Positions 36,496 through 61,700 of a stretch of DNA of 64,000 nt are shown in pieces. Below the pieces are notes generated by a model. The model did no database searches. It was not told the origin of the DNA and saw only the letters and a list, made by a program, of their open reading frames with translations. This DNA comes from Bursaphelenchus xylophilus. Its lineage: Eukaryota > Nematoda > Chromadorea > Rhabditida > Aphelenchoididae. The DNA is taken from the NCBI GenBank assembly GCA_904066235.2, contig CAJFCV020000001.1, forward strand, positions 10,535,291-10,599,290, in the 5' to 3' direction. Each line of letters starts with the position of its first letter. Position 1 is the stretch's first letter. The position numbers and the translations under genes were made by a program.

Positions 36496-38518
36496 ATGGA
36501 TTTCCTCTCCTTTCTCCTAATTTTTCTAAATTTTTCACCCATATTCCCAAAAGATTATGGTTACATTCAACTGCCAGTAAAATATTTCTTAAAATACGAC
36601 AAATCCATTACTTATAAGGCTTCGACGGCGCAGGAATGCGCTGAATATTGTATGAATTCGGGATTAAAATCGTTCTATTACTGTAAAAACGGGACTTGTA
36701 TCGGGAGTTTGGGCGTGATCAGCTTTCAAAACGAGGCTCCGAGTGTTCAAAGTAGGTTGTACTGTAATGGTGTTACAATTAATTTTGCATAGCTATGATG
36801 GCTGTGTTTCAAGTCTATCGTTTTTTTACAATTTGTTTTTCCAGGAACCGGAGTCCGGGATTACGCAATTTACGTCATCAATAACCGATATGGGTGCACT
36901 TGTAAGGACATGCCTTCCGTCAGAGCGCAGCGATGGATCGTTGCATTAAGTGGGTTACTAGTAATGACAGTTAAATTGAATTTGATCAACTCTCCTCTCA
37001 GTTGGGGCTGGGCTACATATCAATTTCAGAAAAGGTTTTTTATAAGCAAGATTGGGAGAGTGATCAGAGAAAAAGGCTTTTAGGTGATATCTCTGCCAGT
37101 TTTGCGAGAAAAAATATTCTTTTTTGTGAAAACATTCCCCTACACGTTAGAAATAAGTACGAAACTTTAGGTTCGAAAATTCGTAAAAAAGCAGCACATT
37201 ATATTCAACTTTCGGACTAAAAACCTTTGTTGTTTTTGCAAAGCGCAGTCTCAGAATCTCGCATATGTCATGACCAAAACTCAGGCTGAATTTGGGCTGA
37301 GGTTCATTACAATCTAAGCACCCCACTTTGAGCACATCTCCTATTAATTGTAAACACAAATTTCAGCGTACGGAGAGAACACCTGTCCGCCCGGCAACGG
37401 CTTTGAACTCGATCTGTCCAACTCCTATGTTTGCAAAAACACAGTATGCCGTTTTGGCAGTTGTCTTATGTGATACTTTAAGGTTGACCAACTGAACGAA
37501 CCTAATAGTGGGCCATACGGCCATAAATATGACAATTACCGTGTTGGTGTTACTACGGATGCGACCGGGTATCCGACGCAGAGTCAGTAAGTAAAATACG
37601 CTGTTGTTTCCAACTATTTTCTTTGGAAGTGACAGAAATGAGATAATTCTTTTGCGTGTTATGTAGCACAGTAATTTCCAAGAATTTTTTTCAATTTTCT
37701 GTCGAAACCCCATTAATTTTAATTTGAAACAAAAACGAAAATTTTTGCCCGGCAACAAATTGATGGCCTGTAAATTGTGAGGTAGGACAACCAGAAATAA
37801 AATCTCAAATTAAGAAAGCTAAAAAATAGTGAAATAAATCTTGTTTTCAGAGTAAACAACTTCATTATGAATCGAGCCCGTATGTTTTACACCCATTTTT
37901 GGTTGAAACTTCTGTATGAATTTTAGAAGCGACAAGAACAGCGATGTATTACTGTGACAACAGTTTTGCTTATGTCATCTTTTTATTGAATGGATATTAC
38001 TGTTCAATGTCCCTATATTTGTATATTAATTCGTCCACACCGTTGATTCAAAATCAATGCAAATATTATATGACTGGGGGTACTCCGGTCAAACTTTTCA
38101 ATCGCATGATTCGGGGATTTTTGTACGGTAAGTTTCGAAAAAAAAATTTTTAAACCGCGTTATGCAGATTCAAATTTCGATTTTATCTGTCGTAAAAATT
38201 CTTTTTTATTTTGTTTTTTTTTCAGCCAGTGATTCGTTATCTCTAACAAAAAAAATATATTTTTCAGTGAACAACGGTGGCTGGCCGGTAGCTGGGATAA
38301 TTCGAAGCGGCTCCGACTGGGTTTACTGGGACTACACACCGATTACAGAGGGCGAACTAGTGTGGCAAAGTGGATTTCCAGGACCTGGTGATATTGCGAT
38401 GATCGGAGTTCAAGGCCTGACTTTGTTCAATGGCCCCGAAAATGTGGAGAATTATTTCCCTTGCATTGCACCGGCGTTGGCTCTCAGCAAAGAGGAATAC
38501 AGCAAATCCGTTGTGTGA
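36496..38518 (+). CDS. Secreted PAN/CW-like plus C-type-lectin-like protein, array gene A
   Basis: 340 aa in seven exons: 36496-36751, 36845-36949, 37367-37443, 37483-37586, 37851-37879 (29-nt microexon), 37927-38127, 38268-38518. Signal peptide about 1-19. The N-terminal Cys module (CAEYCMNSGLKSFYYCKNGTC) resembles a PAN_3/CW domain. The middle has TYGENTCPPG and YGHKYDNYRVGVTTD. The C-terminal part reads as a C-type-lectin-like fold: GYYCSM, CKYYMTGGTPVKLFNRMI, then GGWPVAGIIRSG, WVYWDYT, WQSGFPGPGDIAM and FPCIA, in the usual order of conserved Cys, WIGL-like and W.W.D positions. Calcium-binding QPD/EPN and WND motifs are not seen, so sugar binding is uncertain. Many nematode CLEC proteins combine such domains. 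Exon 4's acceptor is weak (TTTAAG). Confidence 0.78.
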
Positions 38519-39401
38519 ATCTGGCTGTTTTATTGAAAAAAATTATTTAAAAGATTTTAAAATACGATTTGGTTAGTCTTCTTATTTTTTTATTAAATCC
38601 ATGTCACTTTTTTAGAAAATAAATTTAAATTTCTTACCAAGGGAATAATTAGAGAGTAATATGTTCTGATTTGCTTCACAGTTTGCCTATGGCTTCAGCA
38701 TCAGCAACAAATCGCTCCCTGAAAGGTTAGCTCCCACTTTCGGCAGCCAAAATCTTCAAGAGGTTTCTTTTCGAAGGACGACTCAAAATGAAGAGTGTCG
38801 GTCCGGCAGAAAATTGTTTTGGCGCGTAACTTTTTTATTTTTGTGCGTGGAAAAGTTTGGATTTTTGTAAAAACATTACACCCCCACTTGTAAATTTTCC
38901 TGCAAGTTTGAAACCAAAAATCGAAAAAGGCATCAAATTTAGGACAAAAAATCTCGGCGTTTTTTGGAAAAGCAAGCTGTGAATTTCGCTGTATACGTAG
39001 TATACAGCGTGTAAGGAAGCAATGTTCTAAATTTGATGAAATCTTTATGCTATTCTGAGGACGAAAAAACCCCGTTTTCTGGTCCAACCCTCCGCTTTTT
39101 GCGTGCTCTCTTGTTGAATTCGCCGGCATATCTACAAAAGTCGTTTGTTGTGATTTTTGAACATCTTATGAGGTTGCCTACATTGCAAATGGTGTAACAA
39201 ATCTTTTTTCATCTTTGTGTTACCATATCCTCGGCCCTTTAGGTCATTTTATTTGATATATTTCCCTCTCCTCCATAGCTACTTCCTCTAAAAATCTCCT
39301 TTTATAACTTTCTTCTGACGTTATCGTCTTCATAGTAACCAAGGCATCCAATGTCTGGTTTTTGACAACCTTGGGTTCATTTGGAGCATACATTTGTTAC
39401 A
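38519..39401. other. Intergenic, gene A to gene B
   Basis: Holds an AAATAAA near 38620, a perfect palindrome (GCTGTATAC-GTA-GTATACAGC) at about 38988-39008, and a copy of the dispersed GAGAGC-type repeat in inverted orientation near 39060-39110. A 142-aa - strand frame at 38701-39129 is repeat-derived. The promoter of gene B lies at the right end. Confidence 0.55.
39326..39339 (+). promoter_or_regulatory. X-box-like promoter motif, lectin-like gene B
   Basis: GTCTTCATAGTAAC fits the published RFX/DAF-19 X-box consensus (RYYNYYWWRRNRAC) at all 14 positions and lies 62 bp before the ATG. In C. elegans such sites drive genes in ciliated sensory neurons. Confidence 0.5.
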
Positions 39402-41999
39402 ATGTGGATCTCAATACTTTTATTTTTCCCAATTTTTCTAAATCTGGCCAGAAAGGTGGATTATAGACAAGTCCCGGTCAGATACGTGGCACAATACGTC
39501 AAACCGGACAAGAAGTTAACCGTAGAGACAGTAAATGATTGCGGAACATACGCGGCGAATAATAACTACAAAGTTTTTGTGTTCTACAAGAGTAATGGGA
39601 CCTGCGAACTGGTGAACAGGATTGTTGGATACAGCCTTGCAGTGGATTCTGTTCAGCGTAAGTTGAGGAATTTTAGTGCTGCATGGGCTGAGAATTTGCA
39701 GAAATTTGAAGATTTTGGAAAATTTTCCTTTTTCTAGCCCAAACGTTTGCAGCTGCGCCCTGACTTGTCTGCAAACTGCAAACATGAAACTTTTCGTGCC
39801 GAAATTCGGCAAAACGTGTCAACTTTTCGAGGATTTTCGATCTAAAAATCTCGGTTGTTTCTTCAAAGCGCGAGATAAGATTCGGGATCAAACTATCCTT
39901 TTTCTGGCCCCGCCGAAAAGCAAGAATTTCCGGTTCGCGCCCACAACTTTTGCTGACTGCGAAACACGGTTAGGAATTTGCGAAACACGTAGGAATTTCA
40001 GGCTTAGCTTAGCCTCAGGCTTAGCCTCAGGGGCTTAGGCAGCTTAGGCTTAGCCTCAGGCTTAGGCTGTTTCCTACTTTTATTCGCAGTGTGCAGGGAA
40101 ATCGGGGCGCAAGCTGCGAAGCGCGGGGCCAGAAAAAGGATAGTTTTCCTAAGATTCTCGCATATACTTTTGAAAAAATTATTCGGCAGTCCCTACAAGC
40201 TGCGCCTCAAACTTTGAAGAATTTTTACGTGGCTAGCGGCCGCTAACTAGCGGTGAACGTCCTCGATGAAATTCGGCTCAAATTTACCCAAAAACAAACG
40301 CAATTTTAGGGTCCGGCCGACGAAATTTCGTGATTTACGTGAAAAGCGACCGCGATGGTTGCGGAAATTTGAAGTCGCAGGATGCAGAACAAGTTCTGGT
40401 GGATCTGAGTGAGTTTACTCTCACATTACGGACTGTTTATAGCGTATGGTGAAGCGACATGTCCTCCACATTACAATTTCGTGTTGAATTCCAAAATGAG
40501 GATTTGCCAGAACAAGGTGAGTTGGTAATTTCTAATACGACTTTCCTTTTGTCCCTACCGTCTAAACTTGTTCCAGATCAGTGATTTGAAAGAGTCCACG
40601 CTCTATGGGAGTATATTTTACAAGTATCGTCTGGGCGTGACTACCGACTACTACAACATGGACAAAGTGCCTCCTCAAAACCGGATCGCCAACTACGTCA
40701 TGAATCGGAGTCGTGAGTTGAAATTGCTTAAAAATTTGACTTACTAATTTAATTTTTCAGAGGCCACGCAGACAGTAAAATACACTTGTAACTCCACTCA
40801 AGGATACGTTACTTTCTTTGGGAACACTTATTACTGCTACGTGAGCAAACCCTATTCGGTGACCTCAGTCACCCCATTAGTAAACAATGTGTGTAAAACG
40901 GCACTGAAGAATGGAACTCCAGTCAAACTGTTTCACAAGCTGATCAAGGGATTTCTCTATAGTGAGTTTCTAGGCTTTTTTAATTTTTTGAAATTGAAGT
41001 GGTCGTATCTTTGTGTGCTTCTTTCATTTCTGGACTCAAAATTTCGAAATCCGCAAGGAAGATTATAAAAAAAATTTTCTATATAAATTTATTTAAATAT
41101 ATTCGATAACGAGATCTTTTAAAATTCATACTTGGATTTGCTGGTTTCTGTAGAAAATTGCTTAAGGCGCTCAAAATGTTTTTAAAATACGTCTGAGCTC
41201 GTCGTTTATTTTTTTTTTGTTCAGAAAAACGAAAACCGCGAAATTTTTTTTGCTTGTCCTTTGCAGGCAAAGCTGAGATGGTGAACAATCTTTGCCCACA
41301 ATGTAGTGCTCGAAGTTTATAAAAAGGACGGTCAGGGAAAAAACTCTTTAGCGACATCTTCGCCAGTTTTGTACGGGAAAAATTGATTTTTTGTCATGCC
41401 AAGCTTTGGGCTAAAAATCTTGTTTGTTTCTGGTGGCTTTAAAGACCAGAATTGTGCATGTCTTGCAAAAAGTAAATAAAAATTTGTGCCAAGTTTCATT
41501 ACCTGTCTATCGGGAAAGTAATGAGCGCAACGTTGCATCCAAAATTGTATCGCCGCCGAGAAAATGATTCGTGTCAAAATCAAAATGATTTTAACCTCAT
41601 CCACGCGATTGGCGCAGAGACGTTGTGCCATTATTTTCCCGACAGACTGATAAGATTTCGGCGTCGCGCTATTGCGTACATCCCTCGCAATCGTTCTTTA
41701 TTTGTATGGTTTCAGTCAACAACGCTGGCTGGCCTCTTGTGGGGATGTATCAAAAGAACAACAAATGGGTCTACTGGGATGGGAAGCCCGTTCCCTCGAG
41801 CGTTCTGGACTGGCAGCCAGGTGCGCCATACGCCGCCAATGGGCCGTTGGTTCTGGTGGCCAGCCGAGGTCTTTGGCTCTATAATTCAGACAGTAATGAG
41901 CAATACAAGACGATCCCTTGCATTGGGTCGACGATAAAACGAACTTCTCAAGACCTGATCGATGATATCTCTGTAGACACAAACAGCACTTCCATTTGA
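39402..41999 (+). CDS. Secreted PAN/CW-like plus C-type-lectin-like protein, array gene B
   Basis: 349 aa in six exons: 39402-39657, 40310-40408, 40443-40516, 40577-40712, 40761-40961, 41716-41999. Signal peptide MWISILLFFPIFLNLA. Family blocks: PVRYVAQYVK, NGTCELV, TYGEATCPP, YRLGVTTD, NYVMNR, KYTCNSTQGYVTFF, CKTALKNGTPVKLFHKLIKG, AGWPLVGMYQKN, KWVYWDG and PCIGS. The microexon of genes A, C and D is fused to the preceding exon here (exon 4), as in gene E. The end is longer than in paralogues, with a Ser/Thr/Asp tail. A Met 21 bp upstream (39381) is an alternative start but lengthens the signal without need. AATAAA at 42037. Intron 1 holds an inverted repeat and the last intron a MITE. Confidence 0.8.
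39888..40150. repeat. Inverted repeat and short tandem repeat in gene B intron 1
   Basis: AACTATCCTTTTTCTGGCCC near 39890 is repeated inverted near 40130, about 220 bp apart. Between them, 40010-40070 is a low-copy tandem of a TTAGCCTCAGGC-type unit, five or six imperfect copies. Confidence 0.65.
41502..41649. mobile_element. MITE, CAGTCTGTCGG family
   Basis: Left end CCTGTCTATCGGGAAAGTAA and right end CATTATTTTCCCGACAGACT are inverted copies. Subterminal CGCAACGTTG / GACGTTGTG also pair. In the last intron of gene B. Confidence 0.7.
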
Positions 42000-42533
42000 A
42001 GTTGTTGTTAGAAATTGCAAGTTCTTGAAAGAAAGGAATAAACTAGACTACATCTAAGGCTCTATCATCCCCGAATTCATCGTATATTAAAATGCCATGT
42101 AGCGCCGAAAAATCGCCATGGAATGAGACCTTGAATATTTATAATATGAGTGCGAGCAAAGTGCGTTTCTCGGAAGATACGGAAACAAAAGGAAAAATTG
42201 CGAAAATTTTAATGTCTGAGGACCTCACTTTGGCTGATAGATTTTTATTTGCAAGTTTTGATAAATTTAATGGATATAAAGAGCGAAAAATTTCAAATTG
42301 AATCCCTTGATGCTTCTTTTGCGGTTTTAGGTTTGTAAATTTCATGCCCGATTGATAGTCCGTCTGCCGCTGGAGTGATTTTTAGCATTGGGCAGAAAAG
42401 TCAGGGTGCGAGCGTCACGTAAAAAAAAGCCTGTTGCACGGCGAAAAAATTAACAAATTGCACAGTGCAAGGATGCACTTTTCTTTTGTCACAGTTCATG
42501 TCGCCGAAATCACTCCAGCGACTTTGCGAACGG

Positions 42534-44020
42534 ACTATACTGGTTGACAAAATTTTCTTTCCACCTCGTATCTCGGGAACTGCTGGGCCTAGAACCTCAA
42601 AATTCGGCATAGAAACATCATGGGACAATCTAACACCATACCCAAAAAATCATACCATTTGATGCACTTTCAGTGCACTTTTCATGCAATCGGCAAAAAA
42701 AGAGGTGACAAAATTTTCTTTCCACTTTGGAAGAACGTTTGTAAATTAAAAGCCAAAGGCATGATTGTGGTATCGTTGTGATCGCGAAGAAGTCCTCTTT
42801 CTATCCGTGTCACAATTTTACAGGAGTTTTCGTTTGTTCGCCCTTGGGCGTCTGCTCATCATTGCGTTGTCCGTTTTCGGCCAAATTGGTGGACAGAGAA
42901 GCTCGCAGAAGGCCCAATGAGATGAAACTGCCCTTAAAAAATCTGGCATTTATGTCTGCAACATTGTTTACACCAGCATTAAAATTAGATTTAATTTAAG
43001 TGTGTTGCGTGGGAAAAAGCGCCACCTTTAGAGTGCGCGAAACCGGGAAATTGCTTATGTACAGAATGGAAACGTCGAAATGACATGCCTTTGCAGTACA
43101 TATGGCGTATTTTAGGTATTATACGACCGTATGTGTTGAAGCCTACCGTCTTACCTTACCCCCTGTGGTCTATGTCGTCTTAGGTAATACAGGTTGTTGC
43201 ACTACATGACGGAGAGGCATTACCATAACTTAAAATTGATATATTGGGAAATTTGACTACCAGACTACTTTAATACATTGAGATTGACCCGCCTTTAGCG
43301 TTTTTGCTACGACAAATAATTTGCGCGGGAAGCTTAGGGTTGCAAATCTTGCACATGGGGCATGGGGAACCATTCTTCTGCTCACAACTAAGCGCGACAT
43401 CAGATACTAAAATCTTCGGTATTTTTAAAGTCTGCAGTATCATAGAAAATATATCAGCAGGAAAAGTTATTTGAATTATCTGCAGTATTCCCATAATAAC
43501 GTAATTTTCTGGCAACGAGAGGCTTGGAAGTGCACATTTTCCCATGCAACACACTTAAATTGAATCTAATTTTAATGCCGGTGTAAAAAATGTTGCAGAT
43601 ATAAATACCAGATTTTTTAAGGGCAGTTTCATCTCATTGGGCCTTCTGCGAGCTTCTCTGTCCACCAATTTGGCCGAAAACGGACAACGCAATGATGAGC
43701 AGACGCCCAAGGGCGAACAAACGAAAACCCCTGTAAAATTGTGACACGGATAGAAAGAGGACTTCTTCGCGATCACAACGATACCACAATCATGCCTTTG
43801 GCTTTTAATTTACAAACGTTCTTCCAAAGTGGAAAGAAAATTTTGTCACCTCTTTTTTTGCCGATTGCATAAAAAGTGCACTGAAAGTGCATCAAATGGT
43901 ATGATTTTTTGGGTATGGTGTTAGATTGTCCCATGATGTTTCTATGCCGAATTTTGAGGTTCTAGGCCCAGCAGTTCCCGAGATACGAGGTGGAAAGAAA
44001 ATTTTGTCAACCAGTATAGT
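42534..44020. mobile_element. Long foldback element with about 480-bp near-identical arms
   Basis: Arm 42534-43014 is the reverse complement of arm 43539-44020 with very few differences. Both start ACTATACTGGTTGACAAAAT and carry the same 73-aa frame on opposite strands. The 520-bp loop contains a 94-aa - strand frame with two CXXC pairs (CPMCKIC) but no transposase signature. High arm identity implies recent insertion or gene conversion. Confidence 0.88.
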
Positions 44021-44789
44021 ATCACAAAAATATAAAGTTTTCTTATTAGCAAAAAAGTTATAACCAAAAACCGTTTTTTGTCTGGCTGTTCTCCTCAATT
44101 TGCCTTCTCTCTCGAAAGCTGACTGTTGATATCTCGGCTGCCGCTGACAACTTAAAGCTGAATTTTCAGCGGTTGATCTGTAGCTGGCTTAGGGCACGTA
44201 TGGAAAATCCTGAGAAACGAGAACACTTCTTCTTGCTATTAAAATTTTGTAAGAAATTCTGATAAAGGAGACTTTTAGGTCATGCGGGTTCAAAACTTAT
44301 CGGGTTTCAATGTAAGCTTACGCTCTCCAGCAGATGCTGAATACTCAACAATCGGGTTTTCGGGAGGGCACGCGGTATTAGGAGAGCTGCCCAGACGAGA
44401 AACAGTTTTTGCTCATAACGTTTTGGCATCCGCAGGGAAAATTTTCATTTTGTATGGAAAAATCATACAGTAGTAAACGAATCTGAAATTTGTCGCAGAA
44501 AATCGAAGATCTTGTGATATCTTCTGATCCAAAAATCTTGGAGATTTCTGGAAAGCACGAGCTAGGAATCTCTTGTTAGAAAATTATACAGTATTTTTGA
44601 GTCAACTTACAAATTTAGTTTGCCTGATACTAGTCTGTTCGTAAAATCGCCGGAGTTGGGACATGTATTGCGAGAAAACAAAAGTTCTCTTTACACTGTG
44701 CAATTTGTGGCTTCTTGCATGGACTTTTTTGGGCTGTCGATTGAATGTTGACCTTTACAATGCAAAAGGCAAACGTAACTCCAGCGGCA

Positions 44790-45245
44790 TTGCGATAGGA
44801 CCAGAGCGGGCGCACACTTGCGGGCAACCCCTTTGCGGGCAAATTTTTGCGGGTAGCCACTTTGCGAGCAGCCTGGGACATGTGCGGGCAGGGTCGACAT
44901 TTGTGGGAGCCTGGAACATTTGCGGGCAACCGGCGCTTGAGGATAACAAGGTGGAGATGGAAAAATTACGGCGGTATTTTGGAAGTTTTCCGACATTTGC
45001 GGGCAGGCAATACTTGCGGGAAGCCGACATTTGCGGGCAACAGTTCCAAAAGTTCCAATACAATCTGTGTGATTGTTTTTTCCTGTTGCCCGCAAATGTC
45101 GGCAAATTTCCAAAATATCGCAGTAATATTTCCACCTCTACCCTGTTACCCTCAGGTGCCGGTTGCCCGCAAATGTCCCAGGCTGCCCGCAAATGTGACC
45201 CCCTAAATTTTGCCCGCAAGTGTCGCGACGCCAGGACCAGTACTT
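44790..45245. repeat. Iterated ATTTGCGGGCA block arranged as a foldback
   Basis: About a dozen copies of (A)NTTGCGGGCA lie in the left two thirds and several inverted copies (TGCCCGCAAATGT) in the right third. Outer ends AGGACCAG and CCAGGACCAG, and the flanking GTGCGC / CGACGCC, also pair. Spacing is irregular (about 15-60 bp). Confidence 0.8.
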
Positions 45246-45415
45246 CTTTGTGGGAACTATGTAGCGCATTCGTTTCTTTCTCATTTTCGTGTTGTTTTGT
45301 TTTGTCTGCCCGAAGCCAACGACTCTCGTATTCGCCAAATTCCACGTGTAATCAAAAAATCAACGACTTCCGTTACAGTACACCATCGCGATTTAATGCA
45401 CCCACATGTTTCGCG

Positions 45416-45424
45416 CCTAGCGAC
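45416..45424 (+). promoter_or_regulatory. X-box-like promoter motif, lectin-like gene C
   Basis: CCTAGCGAC, 45 bp before the ATG, identical to the cores of genes A and D. Confidence 0.4.
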
Positions 45425-45469
45425 GGAATCCCAAACTTTTGTGCCCATTCGGCCTCGTCGTCCGCCAAA

Positions 45470-48400
45470 ATGATTCTACTTTTTGTGTTTGTTGTTTCAA
45501 TTGCAACTGCCCAGGGCTACATCTACATTCAGGTGCCAATGAAATACCTCATCAGCTACGATAAATCTACTTCAGTGACTGTCGACGATGTCTACGCATG
45601 TGCGGAGTACTGCGGGAACAAGGGTGTGAAGGTGTTTTATTACTACACAAACGGAACTTGTGTTGCGATCAGCCGTGTGGCGAGCTATACGATAGAAACA
45701 AGTGCGGTCATAGGTAGGAAATTTTCTTAAAAATATTTTTTGCATCTTGATTCCTCGAAAACTGATGATTTCAGATTCCAAAACCCGCAATTTCACCGTG
45801 TATGTGGCGTCGGCGCGGAAGGGATGCACCTGCAGTGACATGGACTCGGAAAATGCGCAGATATCGATTATCAGTCTCAGTAAGTGGCATAGATGATGAG
45901 TTTGTTTGCAAAGAAAGATAAGCAAAACATCACTTTGGGCGCCGGGCAACGCGGACCGCCAGACTAAAGGAAAATAAGGAAGAACCTCGAAATACCGGAA
46001 ATAGAAAGTGAAAGAAATGGAGAGGATTTGTCTCAGCGGCTAGCCCAGAAGTTGGAACGTCTAGCCAAAACTTTAAAAGGGCCTCAAAATTATCAAAATA
46101 CCCATAAGTTTGACTAAACATTCATGGAAGCTCAAAGCCCACCTAACGCATTGGCTAGCCGTTGAAGCTATTCCGGACCGGATTCAATTTTTGGCTAGCC
46201 ATGTGAGATTTTTCAGGTTCTTACTAGTTACTTTTGTAGTGGCGGTCCGAGTAATTAGGTTAGGAAAAAGCCGTATGGGCTGCTTTACTTAGACTGTCGG
46301 TGGACTTGCTTCTAATTGTAAGTAATGAAGCCGCAAGATAGCACAATGATGGCTTGTAGTCGAATAAAACACCCGCGGAGAATATAGTCTGTAACTTTAT
46401 AAGCTCCTAATAACACGCAACAAACAATAGTGTTCTATGAAAGTTACAAGATCTCTAGAGATTAGTATCCGATCCGAGTCAATGAGAACATGCCGGATTG
46501 GTCGACAGGCTGCGGCAAAGGGTCAGATGACCATTATTATTATGGGACCCGAAAAGGGACAGGATAATCATCCTGAATTGACGTGAAGTCTATAGTGGTT
46601 GAGTTTACCGCGTCGACAGACTTCCGATCTCACTATCCGTGACCCGGGTGCCTATTTAATTTCACGTATTCTGCAAATTGTGGCTTCTACTGCGCATCTC
46701 CTTATTTAAAGTAATCCGAAACTTTTTTTCAGCATATGGCGAGAACATTTGTCCGCAGGGCTTTAATTACGCCCTCGACAAGGCGATGTCTTATCTGTGT
46801 GTAAATACGGTAAGTTATTCTGCGGTCTTCTGCTTACGAGTGGAGTTTATCAATTCTTGAAAATTTTACCTCGCGCTTTACCGGCGCAGCCGGGATGTTC
46901 TGAATTCTTGCCTTTGGGAAAATGAGGGGAGTCAGACAGAGGAAAAAGCAATTTTTTGGCCATACGTTTTTATAATTTTTTTTAAAATTTTTTTTTGGCG
47001 TTTCTGCAAAGCGCCAGAAAAGAATTTCGCATTTGTCGCAAAATTTGTGTAAATGTAAATTTGTCGTCTCGGATTTGTTGTAGAGAATGAAATTCTGCAC
47101 ATTATGAAATCATCGCTCGTTGTCATAGATAAGGGCGCTTTTTTCGAACATCCAGAATCGGCGATTGATTATGTATGCAATTTTCTTTAACAATTGTCAA
47201 AAGTGGCCTAGCTCAAAAAATCTGCCTCATGGTTTCACTGTCAAAAAATAAAAAAAAAATGGCTCATTTTTGACATATTTCAGGTGGCTGATTTGGACGA
47301 TGGTTCAGATCCGTATGGCCATAAATTCGACAACTTTCGAGTCGGCGTTACAACGAATGTCACAGGGTATCCGGAGCAAAGTCAGTAAGTGCAATTTTAA
47401 TAACAAACTTACATAATTTCTATAACAATCTAAATTTTAAAATCTTTGATTCCAGAGTCAACAACTACGTGATGAACAGAGCTCGTAAGTGGTATAAAAA
47501 TAAAGCAAACCATAAATTTAGAAGCCACAGAGACCGTGAAATACACATGCAGCAATGATCAAGCGTTTGTTGTGTTCTTATTGGATGGATATTACTGTCA
47601 TCTGCAAGTGGATTTGTATATTAACACGACAGTTCCATTGGTTCAAAATCATTGCAAGCACTATCTAACCGGAGGAACTCCGGTTAAATTGTTCAACGAG
47701 ATGATTCGAGGCTTTTTATACAGTAAGATTTTACTCATTAGGGGAAGTGTTCGAAGTTCAGTGTTATGATTTTTTTACCATCTATTCACACGACAGACCA
47801 TGTCAATTTCTGAAATTTTTCGGTCGCGCTTTGCAAGGCCAGACACGTTATTCAGCCATCTTTGACGGATAGATAGTGCGTGATATGAGGAGAGCGGCCA
47901 GAGAAAAAAGCGTTTTTTATCTCTTTGTCAACTTTGCACGAAAAAAATGATTTTTTTGTAAAAACGTTATGTTATACGGTGGAGGCATGGCTAGAAGACC
48001 GGGACAGGGCCTGAGAAAAGCCCCGGGCCGGCCTGACCACTTCGGCCCCCCAAAAATCGACCCGGCTCGGCGCCATTGCCACCCCTAGCCATTTCTGCGA
48101 CCGTGGGAAAAACCATGAGCCTTTGTAATGCCTAAATTTGCGAAACATGTCATATTTTTCCGACTTCCGTGCAAGAAAACCTCGATTTTTTTCATCAAAG
48201 CGCAAACTAGCAATTTCACAAATGGCTTACAAAAAATAATCTCAATTGGCCCAATTCTCGTTAATATCCGAGCCTCGCACTTTGACCACTTCCTCTGTCA
48301 AACTCTCTTACATTTTACTTTCAATCGTCACCATATTACACATGATACATAATATATTATATTTCGCCATCTTTTCCAGTAAATCACGCAGGCTGGCCGG

Positions 48401-48597
48401 TGGTCGGAATTGTCCCGAATGGCACAGGCTGGATGTATTGGGACAATACGACCGTTGGGAATGATATTGTCTGGCAATCGGGATACCCTGGAGATGGTGA
48501 TATTGCGATGATCGGAGTTCAAGGCCTTAGTATGTTCAATGGGCCCGAAAATGTGCAGAATCAGTTCCCTTGTATGGCTAGTGCTACCAAGAGCTAA
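45470..48597 (+). CDS. Secreted PAN/CW-like plus C-type-lectin-like protein, array gene C
   Basis: 324 aa in seven exons: 45470-45713, 45775-45879, 46733-46809, 47284-47384, 47456-47484 (29-nt microexon), 47522-47722, 48380-48597. Signal peptide MILLFVFVVSIATAQG. PAN/CW-like Cys region CAEYCGNKGVKVFYYYTNGTC; then TYGENICPQG, PYGHKFDNFRVGVTTNVTG, QVNNYVMNRA, KYTCSNDQAFVVFLLDGYYC, CKHYLTGGTPVKLFNEMIRG, HAGWPVVGIVPNG, WMYWDNTT, WQSGYPGDGDIAMIGVQGL and FPCMA. It is closest to gene D. Secreted or cell-surface role is inferred; ligand unknown. AATAAA about 48662. Introns 2, 3 and 6 are expanded by dispersed repeats at the places where the same introns of paralogues carry them. Confidence 0.82.
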
Positions 48598-48771
48598 CCC
48601 ACCAAAATCCTAGCATCCACTTCGTTAAAAATGTAAACCATATCGCTGTGTTTGTAGATAAAATAAAGGATTTCTAATGCTGGAAGTTGAAGATGTGGAC
48701 TTTGAAGGTCTTTCATTCGGGTGTTCAACTTGCTGAAGATTCTTTCATAAGTACGAACTGGGCAGAGATCA
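48594..48771 (-). pseudogene. Possible terminal exon fragment of an unknown gene
   Basis: Antisense to the 3' end of gene C. After an ATTTTCAG acceptor, 178 bp encode an uninterrupted, coding-like peptide (RTYERIFSKLNTRMKDLQSP; ILYFIYKHSDMVYIFNEVDA) ending in TAG that overlaps gene C's stop by 4 nt. I found no convincing upstream exons and do not recognise the family. It may be a relic or a transposon end. Confidence 0.3.
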
Positions 48772-49642
48772 CTGAAAATTAATTTAGAGTAAATACAAAT
48801 TTTAACTACATAGTAACGTATGAGTAACAAATTTTTAATGTCAAAAAACGAGAAAGTGTAAAATACGTCATAAAATCCTCCCTTCCAACTAATCAAGGAA
48901 GGTACCACTCAAGACATGGTGATGGAGTTCAAATAAAAAGAGAAACCGAGGAACTGTGAAAGATTCTACAGTTTTTATGGCGCGAGTAGCACGTTGCCGG
49001 ACTGAAATCGCATTGCGAGAAGACAAAGGTTTTCGCCAAAAATCAGCCCGGCGACTCTTCGGGCAGGGCTAGTAAGGAAAGAGCGTATCTTGAGAAGAAA
49101 TGGTATAGCCCCGGGGTGGGGACAAGGCATATTTCTTAAGCGATATTTTTGTTTGCAATGTGGTAAAAGGGTCTCAAAGAAGTTTTTTTAAAGAACTGTT
49201 TTTTTTTTTAAATAGCGTGCTAAGGGGTACATTTTTTGGCAAATGAAAAAGTTGGATGCCTCTTCGCCAAGGTGCCCTATGGGTATAAGGTTCGCTCTTC
49301 AGAATCTTTCCCTTATAAAACATTTCAGTATTTGGGGCGTCCGCAAAATTTTCAAAACTTGGAATGCTGCCTGGACACAACATATCCATGAAATAATAAA
49401 AAAGTCATCCGTTTTTATTAACGTATGCGAAATAGGGCAGGACCACAGTATTCCAATTTTGAGCAAGGTTCGAATTCAAACACTCACACGTCGAAAGGCA
49501 TTATTTATAAGACTACGACCTCTGCCCCCAAAAAACCACAATTCCGAGAAGAATAAAAACGCCATAAATAAGCTGCAAACGATCGCCGAGCCAGTGCCTA
49601 GCGACAAAACTCAAGAACTTCATTCAGCACCCAGCGGCCACA
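48772..49642. other. Intergenic, gene C to gene D
   Basis: Short frames only (for example 49243-49740, which runs into gene D exon 1 in another frame). A TAAAATACG motif lies at 48859. The promoter motif of gene D is at the right end. Confidence 0.5.
49597..49605 (+). promoter_or_regulatory. X-box-like promoter motif, lectin-like gene D
   Basis: CCTAGCGAC, 37 bp before the ATG. The match to gene A extends to CCTAGCGACAAAA. Confidence 0.4.
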
Positions 49643-52600
49643 ATGATTCTGGCCGTTGTTTTTCTATTCGTCCTAACAGGAATCGCTGCCAAACATTACC
49701 AGTATATTCAGTTGCCGATGAAATACCGCGTCAGCTATGATAAATCGGTGGAGACGACGACTGACGATGTCTACGAATGCTCGGATTACTGTGCAAAGAA
49801 CGAGGTTCTAGTGTTTTATTACTACACGAATGGAAGTTGTATTGCCATTCGCAGTGTGGTCAGCTATACGATCGAAACGAGCGATGTGCTAGGTAATTAG
49901 AAGCAAGAAATTGATCCTCAACGAGTTGACAAGCAAATTCGGACCGCTCTCCTGTCTTGTCCAGTTTCGCAAAGGTCGTAGAACATCTTACAAGCGAAGT
50001 ACCTCAAGTGCGACACTCAGATTTTCTCTAAATTTTTCACACACGTCGCGCTGCGGGTCGGGTCATGTTTTTCTCATGGGGTGGTCAAGTCTTCCCCCTC
50101 CCCCGATATTATTTTTTCCCGAACTTCAGATAGTTATATCGGAGGTGAATCAAGTGAGATCTAGCCAGTTCTTGTCTGTTATTTCAAGAACAAGTCCTAC
50201 TCTATCTTTACAAATCAAACTGGATTCAATTACGTTGTTATTTTCACTCAAATTTTAGCATCCTTTGGGAGTAGTTATTTTATGCCTAAATGATCAATTC
50301 CCAGAGGTTTTTTAGCCGGATTTAAAGTATGGCTTCTATTTCACCTTTGGACGTACCTTCTCTGACTAATAAATGTAAGTATCTGTTAATCTGGTTGTAC
50401 ATTTTTAGTTATTAAAGATTTTGTATATTATACTAGGTTATTTAGAAAATTTTGTGCGGGATTTGGCTGAAAAACACGCTAGATTGGTCTCAAACACATT
50501 TTCTCTTCGCTTGATGATCCGTCAAAGTATTTTACTTCATTTTTACAAATAGTTCGCATAGTTTGGGCGTTGAATTTCATCTCTACCTAAAATCTGCATC
50601 AAGTTTGGACATGAAGAAAAAGTCTACAAGAGAAGGAGAAACCTGCCCAGTTACGTTTTTATAGACACTAGAGGCCAATATTACGCTAAATAATCAAATC
50701 CAGGCAGAAAACTTGGCAAATCTCAACTAAAACCTTCAAAAACACCTAGTATTAAACAAAATCTTTAATAACTAAACGACGTACGACCAGATTCATAGTT
50801 ACCTACGTTTATTTTACAGAAGACGTACGTCCGAAGGTGAAATGGAGGCGATATTCCAAATCCGACTGCAAACTGTCTCAAAATTGATCATTTAGGTATA
50901 GAATAACTACTCTCAAAGAACGCTAAAAATTGAGCGGAAATCACAACGTAATTGGATAAAATTTGATTTGTAAAGATAGAGTAGAACTTGTTTTTGAAAT
51001 AATCAACAAGAACTGGCCAGATTTCCCTTGATTAATCTCCGATATAACTGCCTGAAGTTCGGGGAAAAATATCTAAATATCTAGACAAAGTGCTCACTAT
51101 TTTCCCGACAGATTGATAGGTGCTTTTTCAGACTCTAAGACCAGGAATTACACCGTCTATGTGGCGACTGCTCGAAGTGGCTGCGACTGCAGCGACATGG
51201 GCTCGGTCCAGGCGCAACTTTCCATTATCGATCTAAGTAAGTCGGAACATTTGAAAATAAACCTTTTTTAAACCTCTTTTGCACTTTTATTCATGTTTTT
51301 TCTTATTTCAGCATATGGCGAAAACATTTGCCCGCCGGGCTACAATTACGCAGTCGATACGACAATGTCGTTTCTATGCGGCGATACGGTAGGTTCTTTG
51401 CGAAAGTTTGTCATATTTTAGGTAGCCGATTTAGGAGGCAGCTCCGATCCATATGGCCACAAATTCAACACGTACAGGGTTGGTGTCACAACGAATACGA
51501 CAGGATATCCGGAACAAAGCCAGTGAGAGATTTGCAGTTTTGTTTTACAAGCAAAGTGCTTAGGGTGTGATGTTTAAACTTCAATGAAACTTGGCACAAA
51601 TTTAGACTATTTTTTTAAGATATGTGAAATTTTTGACTTGTATTCAATTATGGTAAAATTCTCATAATAAAATCTCAATTTTCAGAGTGAACAATTACGT
51701 TATGAACAGAGCTCGTAAGTGGACAATAAACCTATTTTATAAGCACTGTGAAAACTTGTTTTAGAAGCCACAACAACGTCAAAATACACTTGCAGCACTG
51801 AACAAGCATTTGTTGTATTTCTCATGGATGGATATTACTGCCATCGTCTAGTGGAGCTCTACATCAACTCGTCGACTCCGTTGATCGAAAATCGATGCAA
51901 AGATTATTTGACTGGTGGCACTCCGGTCAAACTTTTCAACAACCTCATTCGGGGATTTCTTTACAGTAAGTTCGTTTTCTTTAATTTAATAATTGAGAGG
52001 TGCTGAACATACGACGTTGGTGTTTTCTTTTAAATTTGTACAAAATTTAAGTCTAGACCACAAATCAATTCCTAAAAGCTTTAGCTCTCGCTTTGCAAAG
52101 GCAGCCGAGGTATTTTAAAGTTAAAAAAAAACAATCTTTGTCGACGAAAGAGTATATGGGAAATGCAGAGAGCGGAGAGAAAATCTTTTTGAAAGAAATT
52201 ATTTTTTTCTTATTGTTAGAACCGTTGATTCCTTTGGTATTCATAAGTGAATGTTTCGTGGATTAACTCCGAAGAGAAGTGCCAAATTGTCACCAACCCT
52301 CGGAATGAAAGGATGTTTTATTTCTGCGAAGCATGAACTAGGAAGTCTGAGCTCCTTGTAGCCCTACTGCTTCCAATTTTTGCACATTTCAGTCTGTCGG
52401 GAAAATAATGAACGCAATATTACTGCGCCGATCGCAACGCTGAATTGGGAAAAGCAATATGATTTAGCCACATTACAAGTCATTTTCTCAGCGGCGATGC
52501 GATTTTGGATATTTTTTTTCCGACAGACTGGTATTCCAGTTGTTAAATCGGAACTCGGTTAAAGCCAAAAACCTTCAGATACTTTTTATTTTCTATGACT

Positions 52601-53204
52601 TTTTGCCTTTGTCGATATAATTTCATACTTTTACCCCAAGCGACATGCACTTCTTTCGCAGAAAATAAGGTTTTTTACGCAAAACAAAAATCATCCTGGC
52701 TACAATTTAGCACCTTGATTGGATGCAAAGGGGGGTTCTACGACGTGTTTTACAATTAGATTTTATAAATTTTTTTATAACCAAGTTATACTCTATACTT
52801 AGACTTCAGTTTTTCATGTTAGTTTTTTCTCTACGAAAATCTCGAAACCTTTTATTTGACATTCTCAACGATTGCAAAGCGCCAGCTCAAAATCCCCGAA
52901 ATTTCTCTGAAAGTTCATTTCCAAGTTCCGACCAAATTTCCAGCATACCATACACACAATTAGAACTTTTACCGTTTCAGTAAACAACTACGGCTGGCCG
53001 GTAGTTGGTATAGTTCGAAACGGGACCGGTTGGATGTACTGGGACAACACCACCATCCCCACGGATCAACTATTCTGGCAAGATGGATATCCACTAGACG
53101 ACGGTGACATCGTCATGGTCGGAGTGCAGGGCCTGAGTTTATTCAACGGCCCCGAAAACGTGGATAACGTTTTCCCATGCATAGCACACGCCACAAAACT
53201 TTGA
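49643..53204 (+). CDS. Secreted PAN/CW-like plus C-type-lectin-like protein, array gene D
   Basis: 328 aa in seven exons: 49643-49892, 51132-51236, 51312-51388, 51422-51522, 51686-51714 (29-nt microexon), 51765-51965, 52981-53204. Signal peptide MILAVVFLFVLTGIAA. Domain order as in gene C: CSDYCAKNEVLVFYYYTNGSC, CDCSDMGS, TYGENICPPG, KFNTYRVGVTTNTTG, KYTCSTEQAFVVFLMDGYYC, CKDYLTGGTPVKLFNNLIRG, YGWPVVGIVRNG, WMYWDNTT, WQDGYPLDDGDIVMVGVQGL and FPCIA. Introns 1 and 6 are enlarged by a foldback and a MITE. AATAAA lies only about 20 nt after the stop, and the convergent gene E stops 88 bp away, so the two 3' ends must be very close or overlapping. Confidence 0.82.
50105..51075. mobile_element. Foldback element in gene D intron 1
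   Basis: Arms about 50105-50500 and 50690-51075 are inverted copies. Paired blocks include CTATCTTTACAAATCAAA / TTTGATTTGTAAAGATAG, the TTTCACCTT(C/T)GGACGTAC block, and AGTTATTAAAGATTTTGT. Centre near 50590. A lone CAGTCTGTCGG-type MITE end lies just outside its right edge (to 51115). Confidence 0.8.
52390..52530. mobile_element. MITE, CAGTCTGTCGG family
   Basis: Left end CAGTCTGTCGGGAAAATAAT, right end TTTTTTTCCGACAGACTG. An internal CGCCGATCGCAACGCTG pairs loosely with CAGCGGCGATGCGAT. In the last intron of gene D. Confidence 0.78.
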
Positions 53205-53292
53205 ATTCCTACGTAATTCTTTTGAATAAAAGCCATATCAGACAAATTCCTTATCACAGCCATGCCAGAGGATCTAAATTTTATACAACCAT

Positions 53293-56200
53293 TCACCGAG
53301 TAATGGGGGTTCCCATACAGGGAAGAAAGTTGTATCCCGAGTTGTTCTTCACATTGACCAACTCCAGTGCGTCTATGTCCACAAAGATAAGGTCTCCTTG
53401 GCTGCTGTCCGGATAGCCGCTCTTCCAGATCACCTCCGAACTGTTGGCCGTTGTGTTGTCCCAGTTTACGTATGTAGTCCCACTTTTTCGATACATTCCA
53501 ACAAGAGGACCGCCGGAAGTGAATACTGGAAAAAGAAAGAGATTGTTGGACGAAATTGTTGCACGGCACGTCAAGAAATTTCGGGCATTGCAAAGGTTCT
53601 CACAGCGAAAAAAAATTCATAAAATCTGTCATCCAAATTGCACATAACAGCAATTTTTAACCTAATTTTTTTATGGGAACTCTAGGGAGTACTACTAGTC
53701 GTATACAACTGTTTTTTATACCGCTGTTGCATTCTAAATGGGTGTCATCGTGACGAATTTTCTGAACATGGTTCGAGCTAGGCTAAAAATAGCGCAAATT
53801 TCAAGGCCGAATATCAAAAAAACTGTCCCATCAAGCGGGACGAGACCGGTGTAGATACTCGAACAACAGTTTAAGGATTTTTTTTGACGTGGAGCGTATA
53901 TCTCCTTCCAGTGCTCTCTGACTCGGTATCGTCGATACAAACTTTTATTTAGACGTTGTATTCTACGCCTTGGAAGACTGTCAAAACACTATGATTATGG
54001 GTATATTTTGGTTCTATTAGCTTAAGCAACTCTCGAGCTTTATATTTGTATCAATATATCTTGTGATTTACTAATAATCTTTATGTCAAAATATTGCAAA
54101 CCATTTGGACAAAAACGAATTTGCACAGGGCAGAATGCCAAAAAAAATTCTAGGCTTTTTCATTGGGCGCCCGTTTTTCTTTTATTTTTTCTTAACGTGC
54201 GCGGCTGAGTACACATTAATCTGTCTGGAAAATAATGTCGCGACAGATCTGTCTCATCGAAAATAGCATCACCGCAAGAAGAAAACAAATTGTGTAGCGG
54301 CAAAATCAAATTGCTTTTCAATTGTGATTGGAGCAGCGGCTAAGTGCTCACTATTTTCACGACAGATTGACATTAATTGTGCGACAGTAAGACTTTCTTG
54401 AAGTTTAGAAAAAAAGTCATGCAATGCGAAGTAATTCCTGAAAGCTTTGGCCTGCTAGTCTCTGGTACAGCTAATTTACTTCACAAAACTTACCATACAA
54501 GAATCCCCGTGACAACCAATTCACCAGTTTGACTGGCGAACTGTTCGCCATATACCCGTCACAATCATTTGCAATCAGCGGTGTTGTCGTGTTCACATAT
54601 ACCGATTGCTTCGTGTAGGCGGTATACTCGCCATTGAAATAGGAGACAAAGCAATTGGGATGGTCACAAGTGTATTTCGTCGTTCCGGAGGCCTCTGAGA
54701 TTTGTAAAATTGAGTTGGGAAGCAAACTTACGTGCTCTGTTCATCATATACCATCGTTTGTCTGAAGTGACGCCTGTTCGAAAGTTACGGTATCGATGGC
54801 CCCAGGGAAACGGAGTGTTCTGATTGGCTATCTAAATTAATATAAGCAGAAAATTGGAATCGCTAGGGCTCGAAGTGCGACGCTAATTGTAACATTTTAA
54901 CGGAACCTATTAAAATTTTAGATAAATTCTTGTAAGATAGGCGTAATTCACAGCTCGCTCGCTCTTTGCAAAGACACCCAAAATATTCGAAATATTTTTT
55001 CCATAGCCATATTTCTTTTGATGAGAGCAACGTCTCTCCAAAAAAATCAATTTTTTCCACGCGAGGTTTGCAGAGATACCGCCAAAGAATTTTTTTCTCT
55101 GATCACTCTCCGCTTTTGGCGCACTCTCTCGTCGACTAAGATCATTGAATATCTCGGCTGCCTCTGCAAAGCGAGAGCTGAAATTTTCGGGAATTCATAG
55201 GTGGTATAAGTGCAATTGTGCGCAAAATCTGAGCGTCGCACCTCCTTTGGCATTATGGAAAAAAAGTAACTTACTGTTCCCGAACAATATTTGTTGCTTT
55301 CGTTGTACGTAATTTTGTACGTGTCGGGACATATTTTACCTCCATATGCTGAAAAAAACTTGAGTAACAAGCAGCTTTTTAAAGAAAATCCATCAAGATG
55401 ACACGATTAATCAAGAAACTTTTGGTACTCTCGTCATCCAGGTGAGAGTTTGAAATATTTAGTTTTCAATAAGAGCTTACTGTAATCAACAATGACCATT
55501 TCGGCGGCTTGAGAGGGAAGACAATCACATGCCTTCTTGAAGGTTCTGAGGTATATTGCAAAGTTTCGAACACCGTTACCTAAAGAATACGGTCGATTAG
55601 AATTCTTACAATACTTTCAACATTTAGTTGACGCTTTACAGAGCTTAGAGCACTTGTAATGTCAAAATTATTTTTAAGTTTTTACGAAACAGCTCGCTGA
55701 GAGATTCCGCTCCTAATTTTTGATGCCAATCTGGATTAAAAACAGCCTTCGTTGCAAGAGAGCACGCAAAATGAGGAGAGTTGGCAAGAGTAAACACGGC
55801 TTCTTCCTATAACTTTTTGGTTCCGGAAAGGAAAACTTTGAATTTTTCTTTAAAAAGCGTAATTAAATTTCAAAGGCCGAAGGTTGCTGAAAACGTAAAT
55901 TTTTCGATTACTTATAAAATCTAGGTAGTTTCTGAAAAGCGAAAGGAATCTCGGGTATCTCAAGTTGTGCCCTAAACTTGAGCTGCTTTTCGTCCAACTT
56001 TATTTTCCGTATATAATGTTAAAAAAGTATCTTGTATGCAAAGTGTTGTTACTAATAACAAGTTTGGGCAAAATCTAGCGATCTGTTATCGTCAAAACGC
56101 GGTCATCTCTGCCTTCGGCTTACTCTGTACACTTTCCGAAGAAGGTAGCCAACTTTCGATCCACTGAAACCCGAGACAAGTTCCATTCGTATAATAAATG

Positions 56201-56382
56201 ATAGCATTTATTGTGTCATCGTCGCCCAGCGCCACGCAATCATTGGGGTCGCTGACGGACATGGAGCTCACCGCATTCGCGTAGTCCACGTTGTATCGGA
56301 CGGGGATTTGAGCAAAGTCAGCAACTATTTTGGCAATCAGATTAATAGTTGTGAGCAGAAATAGCACACATACCTTCTTCAT
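53293..56382 (-). CDS. Secreted PAN/CW-like plus C-type-lectin-like protein, array gene E (inverted)
   Basis: 321 aa in six exons: 56382-56124, 55579-55481, 55348-55275, 54831-54732, 54694-54494, 53525-53293. Signal peptide MKKVCVLFLLTTINLIAKIV. Family blocks: QIPVRYNVDYA, YYTNGTCLGF, CDCLPSQAAE, TYGGKICPDTY, WGHRYRNFRTGVTSD, MMNRA, KYTCDHPNCFVSYFNG, CDGYMANSSPVKLVNWLSRG, SGGPLVGMYRKS, YVNWDNTT and WKSGYPDSSQGDL. It is the most divergent paralogue, in opposite orientation and convergent with gene D. It shares with gene B the six-exon structure (microexon joined to its neighbour). C-terminal Cys is kept in LPCMG. The last exon's domain is slightly longer around DIDALELVNVKNN. Confidence 0.8.
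54218..54369. mobile_element. MITE, CAGTCTGTCGG family (diverged)
   Basis: Left AATCTGTCTGGAAAATAATG and right CACTATTTTCACGACAGATT are inverted, with several mismatches to the family ends. It lies in the last intron of gene E, the same relative intron as the MITEs in genes B and D. Confidence 0.65.
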
Positions 56383-58723: not shown

Positions 58724-61700
58724 TATATAATTGAGTGCTTGTTATATGCATATCAGAGCAAAAATATCATTTATTTTACTATGAATAGCCGTAGTTGTTA
58801 AGAAGAGAACCGTAGGCTTTTGATGACATCATTTGTGACAAAAATTATTACTAGAGTCGCCCTCTTTCAGGACAAAAATCTGCTCTGCTCTCGAAAGGAG
58901 TGCCCGGTCATCAGCTCATTATGCCCGCTGATTGAGCCCAGCGAAACGGATTCGTGTTGTGGGGAATGCAGTAAATGTAGGATGAAGAATGCGAAAAGTA
59001 AACAACATGGAGCGATTTGGGCGAGCAAGGAGGACAAATGCACCAGAGAGATGTGCCAGGTAACGTGTCTAACTTGTTGAACGAGGCGTTGAGCCAACTT
59101 CATGCCAAAATTCGCCAAGAAAGGTTACATTTTTGAAAAAAATCTGGTAGCGCTTGGAGTAGTTGCCTGTCAGTATGTAATATACTTATAAGAATACAAT
59201 TTCAAAAATAACAAAAAATTATATCATCATTTACAGACAGGAATAACAACTCTCAGCCGGATGCATTGCATTTCCGACTGCGACAGCCCAGTCAGAATGC
59301 CCAAGGCGTGCTGTCGTCTCTGCCCCGTTCAGAAATCGAGGAGATTACATTTCGATCCATGTGTGAGATGCGAAGTCATTTGTAAGTTGCTATAAAAGCA
59401 TGAAAAGTTAAGGCTCTTTACTATCATCCCCAAAAAATTCTTCAAGGGCGAAACAATCGTTATTTGGTCAAAAAATAAAGAACCCGGACTTCATGCTGTA
59501 ATTTTAGTTGGTCTTTTCGAGCAGTGCTTCAAGCTGGCCTGTCCTGTTCTAAACTGCCCAATAGATCAGCAGGTTCAACGGAATGGACAATGTTGTCCCG
59601 AATGTTCGAAGCAAAGAAGAGTTTATAAAGTGGAGGTGAGTTGGCAGCCGAAGGGAGAGAATTGGAGACAACTCTTTTTCAAATGTTTGGCGTTCTGTTT
59701 CGGGAGTTTGTGTTTTTCCCAGACATGGAAATCGGCCGAGCTTTTGCAAATCAGGGCATGGATCCCGATGAAAAGAAGGCCCGGCCCTGCTAGCCTGGCT
59801 GCCATGTCAGGCAAAAGAGCAGTTTAAACCACTTTTTTACTCCTTTCCTTTATTAGTTTTAAAGTGCGAGGTTCTCCAAGCCAAGGCGCAAATAAGGGAT
59901 GTCCCCGGTACCCAAAACGGGTGGTCTCTTGCTAGAAAATAAAAAATTCGTTTTTTTTTGTTGTTATAAATGGAACAGAGGTGAAAGATCAGTGGAGATG
60001 GCTGAAAAAGGTATGCTTTTTGTGTTTTTCTATTTTAGAGGAGCTTGGAAAAGCTTTTTACGAGAGTTGGTCCAATATTTTTTGTGTTTTGGATGATTTT
60101 AGGTACTTCTTGACATAACGAAGCGTGGAAATGCATGTGCTTCCCAAAGAACTGGCCAGGAGTGCTGATGGTTGAGTTTTTGTCAAGTTAGAGGCAAAAA
60201 CTACACCGAAGTACCTAGTGTAACATAATATTTTCCAGGGGCCTGTTTCACGAACGCAAAAACCCATATTTCTAAAGAAAATAGAAATATGAGTGAGCGA
60301 GGGAACAAAGGAAATGCATGTGAAACGGGAGAGACGGCAGAAAAATGAGGATTTCGCCACTTCTCAATCGGAGTGACTTTTTACGTCCAAAATCAGGGTT
60401 GGCGGCAGTGTTTCGGGCATAACTTTTCCCTCCATGGGCGTAGAATCACCCTTCAAAATTTCGAATAATGCTAACTGTTTGGACTGTCATGTATGCAAGT
60501 TTCGTTGCATTGTTGCAAAAACTCGCTCGAAAATAGCAGTAGTAATGCGCATATTTCTATTTTCTATAAAATTTTTGCAATTCTAGCTTAATTCCCTCAT
60601 AACATCGCCCAAAATTGTCGGATCGACACCATTTAAAAAAAATCATGTAGACCTGAGTCCGCGGTTTACAGTAAATCCACGATACAGTAATCTAACAAAA
60701 AAAAGTTAACGTAAAAGTTTCTAAGAATTAGGCCCAGAATAGGTGTTATCAATTTCAGGCCGTTTGAAGCAGTTTTATTTTTCACGGATTCCGAGGCTAA
60801 AATAATATAAACCCTGTTCTAGCCTCAAATTCATGTTCCATTGATGTCTAAAAATACTCAGCGTTGCTCATATAACCCTCATAATTCCATTAAATGTCAT
60901 TTCCACATTTTTTACAATATTTGTCTTCAGCGGGGATCGAACCAGGGTCGGTAGATTACTAGTTTTCGTCAAAACCCACTGCGCCATGATTTACCTGCCA
61001 CGGAATCAAGGATGCAAATTACATGTCCCTAGACCAGAATTTTACGCTGATTCCAAATCTGCAATAAAATCTTGTGGGATTTTTGATTTGAAGAAGATAC
61101 GGTCGATTTTTATCGACCGAAGGTCAAAAACTGTATGTTACAGTAATCCTACTACTTTGAAATTGCGATTTTTGAATTCGCCATCCACCAAAACCTATAC
61201 GGTGTCGGTTTCGTCAAGTTGTCTTTATTGCGACGGCAACAGCAGAGCTCAGAAGGACGGATATAACCGTATGCAAATTTCTAGCTTCCGGGCATCACTG
61301 GGCAAAAAAATTTGGGAATGTGTTTTAGTGACCTATACCAACATTTTAGGCCAAAAAACTCAAAAAAAATTTTTTTGAATGTCCGGCCCCTCGTATTGGC
61401 TGACGCAGCGAGCCAAAAATCGTCTTTTAAAACAAGTTTTTTCTAAGCTTGGAGAGCCCTGGCTACACGAAAAATCAAACTGCTTCAATTTTCTTTAAAC
61501 TTGGAAAACTGTAGCTACGTACCATTCTAAGAAACTTTCCCGTTAACTTTTTTTCGAAATCTTACTGCACTTTGGGTTACTGTAACATGACTTGTTTTGT
61601 CATAACTCAAGAACCAGATGTCGTAGCGAGACGGGGTCTTCACCAGTATGTTCAGCGTGCCGAAAGACGGCTTTTTGTTAGCTACACCAAGTTTCGAAGA

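Follow-up and report, generated by a model that had tools for sequence, protein, structure and literature searches.

Array layout and gene models

A stretch of 64,000 nucleotides from the 78.25 Mb genome of Bursaphelenchus xylophilus (C1:10535291-10599290, hereafter the window) contains five related genes, g1-g5, at positions 36496-56382, four on the plus strand and one (g5) on the minus strand. The proteins encoded by these genes were analyzed for a PAN-type module in the N-terminal part and for a C-type-lectin-like domain (CTLD) in the C-terminal part. The genes and the features discussed below are as follows.

36496-38518, plus strand: g1, 340 residues; exons 36496-36751, 36845-36949, 37367-37443, 37483-37586, 37851-37879, 37927-38127 and 38268-38518 (splice assembly)
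39402-41999, plus strand: g2, 349 residues; exons 39402-39657, 40310-40408, 40443-40516, 40577-40712, 40761-40961 and 41716-41999 (splice assembly)
45470-48597, plus strand: g3, 324 residues; exons 45470-45713, 45775-45879, 46733-46809, 47284-47384, 47456-47484, 47522-47722 and 48380-48597 (splice assembly and public record P0001)
49643-53204, plus strand: g4, 328 residues; exons 49643-49892, 51132-51236, 51312-51388, 51422-51522, 51686-51714, 51765-51965 and 52981-53204 (splice assembly, with identical exons by spliced alignment; public record P0002)
53293-56382, minus strand: g5, 321 residues; exons 56382-56124, 55579-55481, 55348-55275, 54831-54732, 54694-54494 and 53525-53293 (splice assembly and public record P0003)
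45470-45879, plus strand: N-terminal part, exemplified by exons 1-2 of g3; signal-peptide-like start (hydrophobic N-terminus) and PAN-like module (model superposition)
47522-48597, plus strand: candidate CTLD-like C-terminal part, exemplified by exons 6-7 of g3 (profile-profile register)
50200-50981, no strand: g4 intron 1; inverted-repeat element with arms at 50200-50400 and 50781-50981 (201 nt, 80% complementary)

An earlier reading of the letters of the window (the sequence-only reading) had proposed that all five models close in frame. This is the case: each gene is a single open frame from ATG to stop with GT-AG introns throughout, the proteins are 321-349 residues long, and public records match the exon chains of g3, g4 and g5. 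One coordinate is corrected: g5, on the minus strand, begins at position 56382. Pairwise BLASTP identities among the five proteins are 33-71% across 322-345 alignment columns, and even the weakest pair, g1-g5, gives an E-value of about 6e-60. The closest pair is g3/g4 (71%); g1 is 54-56% identical to g3 and g4, g2 is 35-41% identical to the other window genes, and g5 is 33-35% identical to them. All five genes share five intron positions in the same phase, g1, g3 and g4 share one more, and eight cysteine columns are invariant in all five. The five-gene paralogous array is real with respect to its gene models, its paralogy and the conservation of its introns.

The public record P0003 is identical to g5 at 321 of 321 residues when compared letter by letter. 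P0001 corresponds to residues 24-324 of g3 and starts at an internal methionine of the g3 model. P0002 corresponds, from its residue 17, to residues 85-328 of g4 (exon 2 onward), and its first 15 residues are encoded at 50329-50374, within the inverted repeat of g4 intron 1. This repeat is high-copy, its arm having at least 40 scored matches in the genome. Exon 49643-49892 appears to be the better first exon of g4, because its product starts with a hydrophobic stretch and it is homologous to exon 1 of each of the other genes. Thus, P0001 and P0002 look partly wrong, and the signal peptide is missing from these two of the three public models. Among the matches listed in one sequence search and two profile searches, g1 and g2 are represented by no public record, so that the exon chains of these two genes rest on splice sites and paralogy.

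Motifs and putative secretion signals

The order of conserved blocks proposed by the sequence-only reading is common to all five proteins, but most of its motifs are not literal in all of them. Only TYGxxxCP is literal in all five. MNRA, KYxC and YWD are literal in four, TGGTPVKLFN, GWPxVG and FPC in three, and YRVGVTT in two, with variants in the others. GYP is present at the W..G.P site in three of the five, and the GYP of g1 is located elsewhere. Each protein contains 9-12 cysteines and 3-7 NxS/T sites, and two invariant cysteines lie in the middle segment. A signal peptide had been assigned to all five proteins; judged from hydropathy, secretion-type N-termini are supported for g2-g5, but that of g1 is weak.

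Family members beyond the array

The genome was searched in six frames with g3, P0003, g2, the public record P0004 and two paralogue models as queries. This search detects eight further family loci on four contigs (C1, C4, C5 and C6).

C1, 4394-4397 kb: family locus
C5, 4032-4034 kb: family locus, represented by P0004
C6, 5353-5357 kb: family locus; model read across a 52-base N stretch and ending before the last cysteine
C6, 5361-5362 kb: family locus; model ending before the last cysteine
C4, 2226.7-2228.8 kb: family locus
C4, 2225.1-2225.5 kb: partial copy; exons 6-7 and an exon-2-like frame upstream, exon 1 not found
C4, 1301-1303 kb: family locus, weak model
C4, 1295158-1296332: family member or relic; matches only, seen solely with the divergent queries

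The total number of loci is 13, ten of which have a model that starts with exon 1 and reaches the last exon, and the window array is the largest cluster found. In a tree of 11 rows, a branch supported at 100/99 sets the five window genes together with the C1:4394 kb gene apart from the remaining rows, and the array is therefore not a clade of its own. Genes g1, g3 and g4 group together at 99/98. Two pairs, one on C6 (99/99) and one on C4 (100/100), represent local duplications. The long branches of the C1:4394 kb and C5 genes make the rest of this tree unsure. PAN_1 matches are also present at C6:5346565-5347844, on the opposite strand and about 5 kb from the C6 family members.

When 5.8 billion proteins are searched by shared 5-residue words with g3 and two profiles, no relatives outside B. 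xylophilus are among the matches listed; distant relatives could escape such a word-based search. It yields two proteins with g3, three with profile A1 and two (P0003 and P0004) with profile A2. These match lists are incomplete, because A2 misses P0001 and P0002, both of which are rows of A2.

Evolution of the array

When analyzed by the NG86 method over the whole length, four of the ten window-gene pairs give computable values, with ratios of nonsynonymous to synonymous divergence (omega) of 0.10-0.21 and synonymous divergences (dS) of 2.0-3.3. The dS is undefined in the remaining six pairs. By these values, the neighbors in the window are old duplicates and, where omega is computable, under purifying selection. 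NG86 on saturated pairs is blind to site-specific positive selection. Birth-and-death evolution, which the sequence-only reading had suggested from the divergence between neighbors, is retained in a weak sense, in view of the tandem groups, the local pairs and the one partial copy.

These values also bear on where the proteins may act. Delivery to the host (pine) or the vector (a beetle), rather than use in nematode immunity or sensing, would be compatible with either fold discussed below. It would suit a plant parasite with secretion-type N-termini in g2-g5 and with no relatives in other species among the protein matches listed, and for a Meloidogyne C-type lectin, secretion into the apoplast of the host is reported (PMC6637863). 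However, the omega values give no arms-race signature, as far as a whole-length measure that is not site-specific can register one, and we regard host delivery as unlikely.

N-terminal module

The AlphaFold model of P0001, predicted without templates, contains an N-terminal module with a strand-helix-strand-strand order. Its residues 1-73 (residues 24-96 of g3) superpose on PAN/apple modules, such as the N-terminal module of plasminogen, the N domain of HGF and apple domains, which have the same order of elements. The superposition spans about 54-63 residues with 7-21% identity. In contrast to these modules, the family members do not reach the PAN cut-offs of Pfam: the best scores are 14.0 bits against 21.1 for PAN_3 (g4) and 11.4 bits against 21.4 for PAN_1 (g3), and later Pfam scans of family members and of a consensus give no PAN match. 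PAN_1 has 38 exon matches in the genome, none of which is within the array. A search with the PF08277 family is uninformative, because it gives no match either in this genome or in 14 control genomes. The model of P0003 (24 rows) is worse, with a predicted local distance difference test (pLDDT) score of 44.5, and the 50 Foldseek rows listed for it include neither PAN nor CTLD. On balance, the fold of the P0001 model supports the PAN/CW call of the sequence-only reading, and the N-terminal part probably has a PAN fold.

C-terminal part

The C-terminal part is arranged in the order of a two-cysteine hairpin (the second cysteine is absent in g5), a candidate C1 cysteine, VVGI, WMYWD, W..G.P and a last cysteine. 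The only candidates for canonical CTLD cysteines are C1 (C230 in g3) and C4 (C317 in g3), with no cysteine between them in any of the five proteins. Canonical CTLDs, namely those of the mannose receptor family and those encoded by the exons of this genome that match Lectin_C, show the same order of a WIGL-like motif, W.W.D and W..G.P. The family differs from them in lacking a Lectin_C match, the C2 and C3 cysteines, and the EPN/QPD and WND motifs at the calcium site.

Evidence for a CTLD comes first from a profile-profile comparison of 11 family rows with 18 CTLD pieces (13 from the mannose receptor family and five from B. xylophilus). It gives a 27-column local alignment with a score of 21.7, in which VGI...YWDNTT...W.SGYP is placed onto WIGL...WSDG...W..P. 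The comparison scores are 15.0 for the N-terminal part, 11.4 for the middle segment and 8.1 for the reversed C-terminal part (12.3 for a longer cut). Secondly, CTLD chains are listed at ranks 8, 10 and 16 of the 50 Foldseek rows for the P0001 model, with weak E-values of 0.33-1.4. The PAN-superposition rows (VIA) barely probe the C-terminal part, and the absence of CTLDs from them is not counted against the fold. A regular expression that fits all 11 members was written after these were viewed and is not evidence.

Several results weigh against this assignment. The profile score decreases to 18.3 when insertion columns are removed, and 3 of 400 column shuffles score as high. Lectin_C gives no match up to an E-value of 10 in the members scanned, subject to the HMMER filters; its 10 exon matches in the genome all lie outside the array. 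A CTLD hidden Markov model (HMM) built from the 18 pieces scores the members no better than shuffles: the best of 12 rows (ten distinct) is 0.9 bits and two rows have no domain, as compared with a domain in 813 of 1,200 shuffles and a top score of 4.0 bits. The pLDDT of the P0001 model is 66-80 in blocks 171-190, 241-270 and 291-300, but 33-59 in the other blocks past residue 190. Neither the PAN_3 nor the Lectin_C cut-off is reached in the Pfam search that the sequence-only reading had proposed as a check, and structure prediction, its second check, gives the PAN module in P0001 but no confident CTLD fold in P0001 or P0003.

These negative results, together with the missing C2-C3 pair and calcium motifs, suit a different reading, in which the PAN module is joined to a nematode domain of another, undescribed kind rather than to a CTLD. 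The resemblance around W.W.D...W..G.P would then be due to chance or convergence, and the protein would still be a secreted binder. However, the profiles match at the best-conserved core of the CTLD, the order of cysteines suits C1 and C4, CTLDs are present in one Foldseek list, and PAN plus CTLD is a known nematode arrangement (PMC5297725). We therefore hold this reading to be possible but doubtful. Equally tentative is the proposal that the C-terminal 200 or so residues (middle segment and exons 6-7) constitute a novel domain for extracellular recognition, specific to the nematode lineage and fused to PAN at about a dozen loci. A CTLD fold is somewhat favored for the C-terminal part by sequence and model, and the CTLD call of the sequence-only reading is accordingly suggestive rather than established.

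The proposed absence of calcium-binding motifs is supported. At the site, EPN/QPD is absent from all 11 sequences and WND from all those long enough to be judged; three, namely the two C6 models and the partial copy on C4, end early. The single EPN/QPD match (g1) falls in the middle segment. Because C2-C3, EPN/QPD and WND are absent, the name C-type lectin is not appropriate for this family. The middle segment was also aligned with the C-terminal part as a candidate internal repeat, for which hhalign gives an uncalibrated score of 14.3 and an E-value of 0.08.

Other searches and surroundings of the array

A zf_CopZ match to g5 (E-value 0.0033) is below its own cut-off and is found in one of nine members, and a Euplotes_phero match to one half of a consensus has an E-value of 0.015; both were rejected as chance matches. 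A PDB sequence search gives no match with g3, one unrelated match with A1 (E-value 0.033) and 17 matches with A2 at E-values of 0.14 or worse, mostly antibodies; these matches were discarded. NCBIfam gives no match for four family proteins, and Rfam none in the window. An inverted repeat at 42534-44020, between g2 and g3, has 489-nt arms that are 98% complementary and 509 nt apart, and may be a young DNA-transposon-type insertion. Further to the right in the window, at 59861-63539, are nested inverted repeats with five arm pairs of 98-264 nt. Frames at 1-33000 resemble by eye exons of SH2/tyrosine kinase, galectin, cathepsin-B-like, serpin and aspartic-protease genes.

Discussion

The reading that we prefer, by a modest margin over even, is that the family consists of uncatalogued secreted PAN-plus-CTLD-like binding proteins. 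The suggestion that it is undescribed or misannotated holds within the searches made: no domain database matches it, two of the three public models lack the signal peptide, and no description was found in the literature, as judged by titles and abstract openings. The proteins are cysteine-rich, would be secreted and probably N-glycosylated, and are so far found only in B. xylophilus. They may consist of an N-terminal PAN module, a two-cysteine middle segment and a strongly degraded CTLD. In this last domain, the WIGL...W.W.D...W..G.P core and a putative C1-C4 pair would be retained, whereas the C2-C3 pair and the site for calcium and sugar would be gone. Extracellular recognition is the most likely function, because the proteins are apparently secreted, have many cysteines, NxS/T sites and two binding-type modules, and fall into no enzyme family found. 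They most likely act as soluble extracellular binders whose PAN and CTLD-like surfaces contact the ligand, either a protein or a non-canonical glycan, without the canonical calcium site. The copies may have diverged toward different ligands, as may hold for the CTLD plus CW (PAN) class of C. elegans. The disulfide pairing, the binding role and any immune, sensory or host-directed use are putative.

Among the closest known systems is class IV (CTLD plus CW/PAN_3), with 16 proteins in C. elegans and none in B. xylophilus in Table 2 of PMC5297725. Both are multigene, with a PAN-type module beside a possible CTLD. In comparison with class IV as that paper describes it, the family is below both Pfam cut-offs, lacks two of the four canonical cysteines and the calcium site, and has an extra middle segment with two invariant cysteines. 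A C1-C4 bridge alone is reported for 24.35% of nematode CTLDs (PMC5297725, Table 3). The family could also consist of ordinary members of a described C-type lectin family overlooked by annotation, given that HMM and BLAST censuses count few such proteins in this species, namely 12 C-type lectins (CTLs) by BLASTP and HMMScan in the available part of PMC9085898 and no CTLD plus CW protein in PMC5297725. This is very improbable, in that the members lack the Lectin_C score, the C2-C3 cysteines and the calcium motifs alike.

Judging by the present scans, the family should not be detected by BLAST and HMM census methods, and secretome or effector lists made from the public models would omit the two genes whose models lack the signal peptide (g3 and g4). 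The available part of PMC9085898 ties the low number of CTLs in B. xylophilus to insect vectoring. If the family is derived from CTLDs, about a dozen additional loci have been unseen by BLAST and HMM searches, and part of the apparent loss of CTLs in this nematode could be rapid divergence.
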